Assembly (NCBI GenBank): GCA_018052735.1 | Contig: JAGPMT010000014.1 | Coordinates: 1-56,766, forward strand | Direction: 5' to 3' | DNA from: Phycisphaerae bacterium | Lineage (GTDB): Bacteria; Planctomycetota; Phycisphaerae; Sedimentisphaerales; Anaerohalosphaeraceae | Length of the DNA: 56,766 bases | In this document: positions 15,311 to 42,388 of the stretch, piece by piece | Numbering within the stretch: position 1 is the first letter of the stretch | Layout: every line of letters begins with the position of its first letter | Position numbers and translations under genes: made by a program | Notes under the pieces: model-generated | What the model was told of the DNA's origin: nothing | Seen by the model: only the letters and a program-made list of their open reading frames with translations | Databases searched by the model: none

Positions 15311-15383
<73 letters not shown>

Positions 15384-17064: not shown

Positions 17065-17137
<73 letters not shown>

Positions 17138-40058: not shown

Positions 40059-41162
40059 ATGATTATTGTCGTTACAGGCATGGTGGGTATCGACAAGAAG
40101 CAATACTTGTCCGAAGTCTGCGACTATGCCCGGCAGCGCGGCAGAAGCATCCATCTGTACAATGTAGGCAGCCGAATGTATGAAGAAGCCCCGGATATAC
40201 CCGCCGGAAGAATACTGGATATCTCGCTGGGTCGGCTTCATTCACTGCGGCGAAGCGTTTTTAAAGATATTATTGCCAAAAGCCGCGAATACGAAAACGT
40301 CATTGTCAACACCCATGCGACATTTCGCTGGCGGCACGGCCTGTTTCCGGCGTTTGATTTTTATCAGATGCGCCAGCTCCATCCCGATTTGTTCATCTGC
40401 CTGATTGACGGTGTTGAGCCGCTGCATCTGCGGCTGACACGGGAGCATCCGATACACCATACCCTCAAAGATTTGATTGTATGGCGGGAGGAAGAGGTGC
40501 TGGCCACCCAGATGATGCAGCAGGGAACCAGCGAGAAAGCCCCCTGCTATATCTTGGCCAGAGGTCTTACCCAGCCTTCTGTTGAAACCTTTTACCGGCT
40601 GGCGTTTGAGCCGCGCCGCAAAAAAGCTTATTTGAGCTTTCCGATGACCCATGTCGCCGGCCTTGCGGATGTGCAGACGGCGATTGAGGCGTTTCGGAAG
40701 TCCATGAAAACACTGCTTACCTGTTTCGATCCGGCCGACTTGGAAGAAGCCTACCTTCCTCTCTACGCCGAACAGGCACAGAGAGAGGGCAGACACACAG
40801 TTAGCGTTACTGTCTTGGGACAGGCTATTGAACTGGATGCGGCGGAGGTTCGGCAGATCGAGCGGGATATCCGCAGTCAGATTTATGCGCGGGATTTTGC
40901 ATTGATTGACCAGTCGGATATGATTGTCAGTTTTATCCCCGAACTGCCGGACGGCATGCCGGCGTTGTCCAGCGGGGTTGAGCGCGAACTGCAGCACGCC
41001 CACGAAGCAGCCAAACAGGTCTATGTCATCTGGATGCCGAAGAATAAAAAGCCATCGATCTTTATCACCCAGACAGCCAATCGCGTATTTCGCTGCCCTG
41101 ATGAGGCGATGGATTATTTCGAAACCGCCTGCGGCTATAAAAGCGACATGCTGTTTGAGTAG
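40059..41162 (+). CDS. Two-domain protein: adenylate-kinase-like plus deoxyribosyltransferase-like, function unknown
   Basis: I do not recognise a characterised family for this 367-residue protein. The N-terminal half (about 1-180) begins MIIVVTGMVGIDKKQYL, a P-loop-like start (G7, G10, K13-K14) that lacks the usual GKS/T order, followed by strands such as YENVIVNTHATFRWRHG (78-94) and LFICLIDG (111-118), in the manner of archaeal-type adenylate kinases. The C-terminal half (about 188-367) has KAYLSFPMT (189-197) and DFALIDQSDMIVSF, SGVERELQHAHEAAKQVYVI (305-324), the layout of nucleoside 2-deoxyribosyltransferase-like domains. Both domain calls are inference from pattern. It follows prfA by 18 bases. 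Confidence 0.7.
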   Translation: MIIVVTGMVGIDKKQYLSEVCDYARQRGRSIHLYNVGSRMYEEAPDIPAGRILDISLGRLHSLRRSVFKDIIAKSREYENVIVNTHATFRWRHGLFPAFDFYQMRQLHPDLFICLIDGVEPLHLRLTREHPIHHTLKDLIVWREEEVLATQMMQQGTSEKAPCYILARGLTQPSVETFYRLAFEPRRKKAYLSFPMTHVAGLADVQTAIEAFRKSMKTLLTCFDPADLEEAYLPLYAEQAQREGRHTVSVTVLGQAIELDAAEVRQIERDIRSQIYARDFALIDQSDMIVSFIPELPDGMPALSSGVERELQHAHEAAKQVYVIWMPKNKKPSIFITQTANRVFRCPDEAMDYFETACGYKSDMLFE

Positions 41163-41170
41163 AAGCCATA

Positions 41171-41258
41171 AATGTCCCGAAGGGATGAGATATAGCAGCC
41201 GGAGATGAAATCTCCGGCAAAGGAGCTATAATAGGAATTAAGCCCCAAAGGGGCCAAA
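41171..41258. repeat. Three-hairpin intergenic element (REP-like)
   Basis: Three inverted repeats stand in a row in a 113-base gap. First, TCCC-GAA-GGGA (41175-41185). Second, nine-base arms GCCGGAGAT and ATCTCCGGC around GAA (41198-41218), itself flanked by TATAGC (41191-41196) and GCTATA (41225-41230), which can pair. Third, GCCCC-AAA-GGGGC (41242-41254). I recall similar triple-hairpin repeats with GAA/AAA loops in several bacterial phyla, often tied to REP-associated IS200-like transposases; that link is memory and inference, since only one copy lies in this window. Confidence 0.7.
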
Positions 41259-41275
41259 CAAAATGGAACATTAAA

Positions 41276-42388
41276 ATGAAGATTAAAGAGATTGCACAGG
41301 CGATTGAGGAGATTGCCCCGCTGGGGCTGGCGCAGGAGTGGGATAATGTGGGTCTGCTTATCGGCGATCCGGCGAAATCCATCAAAACCATTCTGCTGAC
41401 CATCGACACAACAAAAGCAGTCGTACAAGAGGCCAAAACACTGAAAGCGGATTTGATTTTAGCGTATCATCCGATTATCTGGGACGGCCTGAAGCGCATT
41501 ACCGCCGACGGAGCTACCGCTAATATTTATGAACTGATTCGAGCGGGCATCAGCGTCTTCTGCATTCATACCGCGCTGGACACGGTCGCCGGCGGAGTCA
41601 ATGACGCTTTAGCCGACATACTCGGTATGGATAATCCAAAGCCCATCGGCGACTATGTCGCCGATCCGGCTGGGCCGCAATATAAGGTGATTACATTTGT
41701 GCCTGATAATGCCGTAAATGAGGTAGCAGAAGCCCTGTATGCCGCCGGTGCAGGGGCTATCGGCAGCTACAGCCATTGCGGCTTTCAGACCGCAGGTGTT
41801 GGAACATTTAAGCCATTGACAGGAGCACATCCAGCCATCGGCAAAATCGGACAGATCGAAAGAGTGGACGAAATTCGTCTGGAAACGGTTGTTTCTGCCG
41901 AGAAAGTTTCAGCAGTAATTGCCGCCCTTCGAAAAAGCCACCCGTACGAGACACCAGCGTTTGATGTATTCAGACATTATAATGTCGAAAATAAGCTCGG
42001 ATTAGGCCGAATGGGTACCCTTCGAACTCCCCTTTCGATTGAACAAATCATCACAAATGTTAAAAAAGCTACTGGCGCAGCAGCCGCCGGGATTGTAGGA
42101 CAGCCAAAACGTATCATTCGGACGGCAGCCGTCTGTGCGGGAACCTGCGGCAAGCTGCTCAACACGGTCATTGCCGCCGGCTGCGATCTGTATCTGACCG
42201 GCGAACTCAAACACCATCAGGCACTGGCCGCACAGGAGGCGGGATTGACCTGCATCTGCCTGTCGCATACGGTTTCGGAGCGGTTTGCGCTGAAAAATCT
42301 GGCAAATCGCTTGAAAAAACGGCTCAAAACCTGCACAATACGGATCAGTAAAAAAGACAAAGACCCCTTTATCTGGAAAGAGATATAG
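41276..42388 (+). CDS. Nif3-like dinuclear metal centre protein
   Basis: The 370-residue protein belongs to the Nif3/YqfO family, a toroidal hexamer with a dinuclear metal site and no settled biochemical role. N-terminal QEWDNVGLLIGD (residues 20-31) and AYHPIIWDG (64-72) carry metal ligands; CIHTALDT follows near 95, and the C-terminal LTGELKHHQALAAQEAGL and HTVSER segments complete the site. Between them lies the PII-like insert (about 130-235, including SHPYETPAFDV) that marks the longer YqfO form. Its TAG shares one base with the scpB GTG. Confidence 0.93.
   Translation: MKIKEIAQAIEEIAPLGLAQEWDNVGLLIGDPAKSIKTILLTIDTTKAVVQEAKTLKADLILAYHPIIWDGLKRITADGATANIYELIRAGISVFCIHTALDTVAGGVNDALADILGMDNPKPIGDYVADPAGPQYKVITFVPDNAVNEVAEALYAAGAGAIGSYSHCGFQTAGVGTFKPLTGAHPAIGKIGQIERVDEIRLETVVSAEKVSAVIAALRKSHPYETPAFDVFRHYNVENKLGLGRMGTLRTPLSIEQIITNVKKATGAAAAGIVGQPKRIIRTAAVCAGTCGKLLNTVIAAGCDLYLTGELKHHQALAAQEAGLTCICLSHTVSERFALKNLANRLKKRLKTCTIRISKKDKDPFIWKEI

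Follow-up and report, generated by a model that had tools for sequence, protein, structure and literature searches.

An intergenic three-hairpin element of a Phycisphaerae bacterium as a very probable orphan copy of a REP-like mobile DNA element

Three hairpins between an AAA_17 and a DUF34/NIF3 gene

The DNA that we analyzed, a stretch of 56,766 nucleotides from a Phycisphaerae bacterium (the window), carries two genes on its plus strand, one for a 367-aa AAA_17 domain protein (40059-41162) and one for a 370-aa DUF34/NIF3 protein (41276-42388), separated by a gap of 113 bases. The original prediction had placed three hairpins at 41171-41258, and all three are present on the plus strand within this gap. 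Hairpin S1 (GTCCC-GAA-GGGAT, 41174-41186) has a TCCC-GAA-GGGA core at 41175-41185, extended by a G-T pair at 41174/41186; S2 (41198-41218) consists of nine-base arms around GAA, eight pairs of which were modelled as family-wide; and S3 (41242-41254) reads GCCCC-AAA-GGGGC. Seven copies of the element, that of the window included, served to build a covariance model, R1, which matched the whole three-hairpin element at 41173-41256 of the plus strand with 89.3 bits (E 1.6e-15 in its own genome). The next-best R1 match within the window reached 11.5 bits (E 0.88), and short CCCNAAGGG motifs occurred near the level of chance (4 in the window vs 2.33 expected).

RNA folding of the plus strand surpassed that of all 200 dinucleotide shuffles (z -4.36), as did DNA folding of the plus strand (z -3.95) and of the minus strand (z -5.06). 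The original prediction had denied that the hairpins are terminators; none of the three is followed by a T-run, and we discarded the terminator reading for this reason. In a scan against Rfam, the sole match in the element region was RF01687 (Acido-Lenti-1), which spans S1 and S2 on the minus strand (41173-41217) and stays below its gathering score (25.2 bits vs 37, E 0.0014), also when the whole window was scanned. The window's only Rfam matches above gathering score were two tRNA genes on the minus strand, at 15311-15383 and 17065-17137.

We analyzed the conservation of the hairpins in two alignments. In the first (A3), seven copies were aligned by MAFFT without structural guidance; 97.6% of the cells were paired, changes on both sides were seen at 5 of the 18 pairs, and controls in which the structure was slid along the alignment reached at most 61.9%. 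The second (A5) drew on 52 loci of our choosing, which gave 76 R1 matches at E 1e-7; of these, 71 were distinct, and they were aligned to the model. Here 99.4% of the cells were paired, a level reached by none of 500 shuffles and by no slid control (at most 60.4%), and both-side changes occurred at 14 of the 18 pairs, distributed over S1 (4 of 5), S2 (7 of 8 family pairs) and S3 (3 of 5), with some G-U pairs among the changes. The fitting of A5 to the structure biases its pair counts in favor of that structure; A3, with which it agrees, was aligned without such guidance. The covariance of the stems, which had been proposed as a check, therefore came out in favor of all three: compensatory changes in relatives keep each of them. 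The same cannot be said of an outer pair of TATAGC (41191-41196) and GCTATA (41225-41230) that had been described around S2. This pair exists in the window copy (41191-41230), but only 45.2% of its cells were paired vs a shuffled mean of 42.3%, and we dropped it from the element as incidental to that copy. At the 5' foot of S2, the 71 copies carry ATAG (40 copies), GTAG (14), TTAG (12) or other tetranucleotides (5); the window copy has GCAG at this place (41195-41198), a degenerate form of NTAG.

Copies in related genomes and at Y1 transposase genes

The genome to which the window belongs (2.88 Mb, 96% complete) holds one copy of the element, as judged by BLAST, by pattern search and by the covariance model. 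When a 98-base query was compared with 98 genomes (the own genome and 97 relatives), near full-length matches were found at several places in relatives of the same genus. R1 matches were then counted up to E 1, as lower bounds, in nine relatives of the window's genus (G001-G009). There were at least 69 in G001, 51 in G002, 49 in G006, 42 in G007, 31 in G009, 13 in G004, 12 in G005 and 9 in G008, and no match was listed at E <= 1 in G003, whose genome is 57% complete. Thus the genome-wide count of copies, proposed as a check of a mobile repeat, gave a divided answer: the many dispersed copies that are characteristic of GTAG REPs are seen in eight of nine genus relatives, with at least 9 to at least 69 copies each, but not in the own genome. 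The original prediction had counted a single genomic copy together with a lack of compensating changes in relatives against itself; the copy is indeed single at home, but the compensating changes are clearly there. It had also proposed a search for an IS200/IS605-like or REP-associated transposase, and in the own genome none was detected either with the Y1_Tnp profile PF01797 (E 0.001) or with a subclass 1.2 profile (E 1e-15).

The copies in relatives are found in several arrangements. Among 149 listed copies from the genus, counted outside the own genome, the close pairs comprised 15 with S3 pointing inward (18-44 bp apart), 3 of the opposite arrangement and 1 in tandem; the S3-inward arrangement is also that seen at the transposase gene described below. 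Two genomes, G239 and G023, carry tandem arrays with a period of 66-74 bp, in which S3 of one unit is S1 of the next. The basic unit of the element is therefore S1-S2, and the three hairpins originally noticed are one unit plus the following S1. These arrays (L228 and L229 in G239, L227 and L230 in G023) lie at or near contig ends; tandem S1-S2 arrays may break assemblies.

We searched 40 genomes with PF01797 and found a match in 35 of them, the own genome being among the 40 and without one. The best 60 Y1_Tnp matches were taken as transposase loci, together with as much as 3 kb of flanking DNA to either side; three of them, L149, L151 and L167, encode fewer than 110 aa owing to a stop or a contig end and were kept in the flank and motif counts and left outside the tree. 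At E <= 0.1, R1 matched 59 times in the 43.9 kb lying at most 300 bp from the gene and 9 times in the remaining 237.5 kb, so that the density of matches near the Y1 gene was about 35-fold above that in the rest of these loci. The element stood as inverted ends on both sides of the gene in 21 of the 60 loci and on at least one side in 28. The distances were regular. Upstream copies running with the gene lay 19-43 bp before the domain match in 22 of 24 cases, and in the other two (L116, 185 bp; L147, 167 bp) a nearer copy points the opposite way; the 25 inverted downstream copies lay about 95-177 bp behind the domain match. In some loci, further copies were found beside the bracketing ones. RF01687 gave a count that is independent of R1, because the Rfam model was not built in this analysis: 15 of its 17 over-threshold matches in the 60 loci fell within 400 bp of the transposase ORF. 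The elements are many more than the genes, as in G001, with at least 69 R1 matches vs 9 Y1_Tnp matches. In four loci of the same genome (L055, L060, L062 and L063), we noticed several copies enclosed by outer inverted repeats such as TGCTCTGTAGAAAAG / CTTTTCTACAGAGCA, which looks as though they had been carried in, or turned into, an element with terminal inverted repeats.

The flanked genes share a motif. Loci encoding Y---Q--HH were flanked in 28 of 31 cases, vs 0 of 29 loci without the motif (Fisher p 4e-14, with kinship ignored). The reading frame is intact in 30 of the 31; in L149 the motif is seen on reading past a stop. The three unflanked loci are L145, which runs into a contig end, L141, whose single weak copy is oriented the other way, and L149, which has the stop in frame and no R1 match. 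On an unrooted tree, the flank label required 4 changes vs a shuffled mean of 19.3, indicating that flanked genes are clustered, though not as one clade. WQ is present in all 30 intact Y---Q--HH rows, and their length is mostly about 148-150 aa (20 rows aligned). DH[IV]H is exact in 16 of the 30 proteins; in the others, D is replaced by N or E, or the residue between the histidines is L or M. When five flanked proteins were compared with NCBIfam, four exceeded the cut-off of the IS200/IS605 model NF033573 and the fifth scored 51.7 bits vs 55, and none of the five reached the cut-off of REP_Tyr_transpos. A transposase profile matched eight transposase sequences in the PDB, IS200-type TnpA and ISHp608 among them, and none of the eight is named REP-associated.

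Y---Q--HH, WQ and the protein length agree with subclass 1.2 of TnpA_Y1, which is described in the available passages of Quentin et al. 2018 (PMC6006769) by Y---Q--HH, WQ and DH[IV]H, with hosts mainly in Cyanobacteria and Bacteroidetes and with "no" under REP. Judged by its motifs, the partner transposase is IS200-like and of subclass 1.2, not a classical RAYT: the class 2 TnpA_REP of REPtrons has Y---NP. The assignment to subclass 1.2 was made by motifs, and DH[IV]H holds in 16 of 30 proteins. Our data differ from the published account of the subclass in two ways: 28 of 31 such loci were flanked by a defined repeat, and, of 149 genomes from the phylum of the window, 32 carry such genes. The automatic REP search of that survey, as described in the same passages, asked for GT[AG]G, and elements with an ATAG foot may therefore have been missed. 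Class 3 of TnpA_Y1, as presented there, is likewise found in Planctomycetes and Acidobacteria with atypical flanking structures and high copy number, but it is defined by Y----Q and a CnGA foot, in contrast to Y---Q--HH and NTAG here. The idea of a mobile repeat of the REP/RAYT type thus held for the dispersed copies, the compensatory changes and the inverted copies bracketing a Y1 gene, but not for its transposase, which is IS200-like by motif rather than RAYT.

Acido-Lenti-1 and the spread of the element

The Rfam model RF01687 has 46 positions and corresponds to S1 and S2 on the reverse strand of the element; it omits S3, and the family is typed "Gene; sRNA". This typing differs from what we saw, in that the element behaves here as the DNA ends of a transposase gene. 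RF01687 exceeded its gathering score in 20 of the 40 genomes (the own genome included, without a match), several of which had at least 20 matches, and in none of 14 control genomes; the counts per genome are lower bounds in this search as well as in the phylum search below. A table of PMC2864571, by its column headings, enters the family as "y" for RNA and as "n" for cis-regulatory. In the passages seen of a 2026 paper (PMC13298647), little is said to be known of Acido-Lenti-1 and its copies are proposed to regulate nearby protease genes, and a passage of PMC10059132 counts multiple copies on one Vibrio anguillarum chromosome as ncRNAs. In the open-access full-text literature (titles, beginnings of abstracts and passages; most subscription papers and bioRxiv lie outside it), we found no link between RF01687 and a Y1 transposase.

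We then compared element and transposase across the phylum. Of 149 genomes, 35 had RF01687 (E <= 1e-5), 32 had a match to the subclass 1.2 profile (E <= 1e-15) and 29 had both, that is, RF01687 was found in 29 of 32 genomes with the transposase vs 6 of 117 without (Fisher p 1e-21, with kinship ignored). The three transposase-positive genomes without RF01687 were G114, with an apparently intact gene, G184, with stops, and G203, with fragments. Among the six with RF01687 and no transposase match is G108, which holds at least 16 matches, including the top score of the sample. Beyond the window's order, we also read transposase loci from other families, eight in all; three were chosen for a repeat seen nearby and five were not. 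All eight have an element match within about 130 bp, and in five the matches are inverted on both sides, some of them weak.

The element was also found in Bacteroidota. On a plasmid of Persicobacter sp. JZB09 (CP012861.1), which has 14 R1 matches in the record, a transposase gene at 286852-287301 is bracketed by R1 matches, and plasmid pPP1 of Persicobacter psychrovividus has 22, including four inverted pairs. An attempt to read the edges of the unit from these four pairs and one on pPP2 found none, the similarity extending past the hairpins. The pairs (L241-L245) lie inside a larger repeated segment, and their similarity runs through most of slices of about 400 bases.

Plasmids of Bernardetia, Kovacikia and Leptolyngbya with IS200-like genes gave no R1 match (0 of 3), and no Acido-Lenti-1 match was found in the scanned Kovacikia and Leptolyngbya loci. 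The plasmid of Bernardetia sp. Wsw4-3y2 (NZ_CP147018.1) has a subclass 1.2-like tnpA (L214:1386-2064) with inverted repeats of 22-32 nt, AAGCTGCGTAGCTGCGTAATATTTGTAGAAAT and relatives. Repeats of this type, which flank the tnpA gene, are unrelated to the element, suggesting that subclass 1.2-like genes of other lineages may have repeats of their own. Small hairpins, e.g. CCCACTTTAGTGGG and GGACTTTCAGTCC, were seen near subclass 1.2-like IS200-type genes on the plasmids of Kovacikia minuta and Leptolyngbya boryana (L239 and L240).

Interpretation of the window copy and its relatives

The relatives that we found through the neighboring gene are Planctomycetota records. Among six genus relatives with a DUF34/NIF3 match, G008 alone carries the element in the same gap between AAA_17 and DUF34/NIF3, and among 18 DUF34/NIF3 stretches outside the window (some places being represented twice) this is the only place with the element directly before the gene. 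The G008 copy (in C82) scores 45.7 bits with RF01687, above gathering score. It is 80% identical to the window copy, and another G008 copy is 78% identical; because these values are nearly equal, common descent of the two copies at the shared site rests on their position. In the other five relatives, the AAA_17 neighbor was unmatched in the fetched upstream stretch (0.5-4.6 kb), and there is therefore no strict empty site to hand. As no pair of empty and filled sites was found among the genus relatives examined, these data do not show an insertion event.

Could the hairpins belong to a structured RNA, either an sRNA in its own right (Acido-Lenti-1) or a cis-acting regulator of the DUF34/NIF3 message? 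The typing of RF01687 and its entries in PMC2864571 fit the former, and the strong RNA folding, the G-U pairs among the changes and the retention at the same site in G008 are in keeping with an RNA. A copy number that ranges from 0 to at least 69 within one genus, the inverted pairs and tandem arrays, and the regular inverted bracketing of a transposase gene argue against it, as does the finding that, among the 18 stretches outside the window, the element stands directly before DUF34/NIF3 at no other place than that in G008. We consider an RNA improbable. Still more improbable is a hairpin cluster of local origin that ends or stabilizes the transcript. A short gap between co-directional genes is a common place for such hairpins, but they have no T-run here, and relatives carry homologous copies at many other sites; the hairpins may have taken on a secondary role after insertion.

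The bracketing itself might be read otherwise, with the hairpins serving the transposase as a target or hot spot for insertion rather than as its own ends. Insertion sequences that insert into REP sequences are known (ISPpu9, as mentioned in the abstract of PMC8450116), and the further copies beside the bracketing ones would suit such a target. A target copy, however, would be split or one-sided, whereas in 21 of the 60 best loci the gene lies between two complete elements of inverted orientation, at distances that hardly vary, and five of the eight loci from other families of the phylum also have matches on both sides. This, too, is quite unlikely, ranking between the two alternatives above. 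The three hairpins of the window are very probably an orphaned REP-like mobile DNA element, related copies of which would be moved by a Y1 transposase of the subclass 1.2 type.

We propose the following mechanism for this mobile element, by analogy with TnpA_IS608 and TnpA_REP. The unit would be S1, about 10 nt, (A/G/T)TAG, S2 and about 20-30 nt, followed by S3 as the S1 of the next unit. The small IS200-like Y1 (HuH) transposase with subclass 1.2 motifs, whose gene appears between inverted copies in relatives, would recognize S2 and its 5' foot tetranucleotide in single-stranded DNA, such as the lagging-strand template. It would then cut and rejoin at the S2 foot and spread elements in trans, which may account for the solo copies, inverted pairs and tandem arrays scattered through the genomes of relatives. 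The element probably entered the gap between AAA_17 and DUF34/NIF3 before the window species and G008 parted. Because no transposase was found in its genome and its foot is the degenerate GCAG, the window copy is most likely a relic and, as DNA, inert, and its hairpins may have a role in the transcript of the two genes.

If so, the Acido-Lenti-1 RNA of Rfam would be a model of S1 and S2 of this DNA element, read on the reverse strand, and the element behind the "sRNA" entry of the catalogue is probably not a small RNA. It seems likely, with somewhat less confidence than for the window copy itself, that Acido-Lenti-1 is not an RNA gene and represents the DNA substrate and dispersed offspring of a subclass 1.2 TnpA_Y1. 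It would then be a REP-like system of its own, marked by an NTAG foot and by hairpins chained as (S1-S2)n, whose solo elements, inverted pairs and arrays would be moved in trans. Such a system would extend over Planctomycetota, at least some Bacteroidota and, according to the Rfam taxa, Acidobacteria and Lentisphaerae.

A REP-like type of element is already known. Like the element, GTAG REPs and REPtrons have a palindrome with a tetranucleotide at its 5' foot; their copies are dispersed, form inverted pairs (REPIN- or BIME-like) and flank a Y1 transposase gene. For the element, such flanking was found here in relatives (28 of 60 loci, all with Y---Q--HH), but not at the window copy. The element is unlike them in its foot, mostly ATAG and in the window GCAG instead of GT[AG]G, and in its three chained hairpins, the outer ones small and of the GAA type. 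It shares with IS200/IS605 a Y1 HuH transposase and hairpins near both ends, but whole inverted elements stand on both sides here and elements far outnumber genes. GTAG REPs and transposase-flanking repeats were already reported for the planctomycete R. baltica in the passages seen of PMC3733652. We compared these families by their description, and the element may equal one of them. Three features appear to be new: the subclass of the partner, the chained build of the element and its identity with an RNA family of Rfam. Subclass 1.2 Y1 HuH transposases, listed without a REP partner, gain a concrete candidate DNA substrate, and an annotated small-RNA family of unknown function becomes a probable mobile DNA element. 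Both the proposed regulation of protease genes by Acido-Lenti-1 and its counting as Vibrio ncRNAs, as given in the passages cited above (PMC13298647 and PMC10059132), merit re-examination.

Two observations concern the DUF34/NIF3 gene in other genomes. In G001 (C53:10674-13398, L180), where the AAA_17 neighbor was not found in the fetched upstream stretch, DUF34/NIF3 is preceded, at a distance of about 0.9 kb, by a complete bracketed transposase. In Phycisphaerales bacterium UBA7708 (L048:80-136), an S3-like hairpin, AAGCCCCATCGGGGTGACA, that R1 did not match lies in the 55-base gap before the gene.
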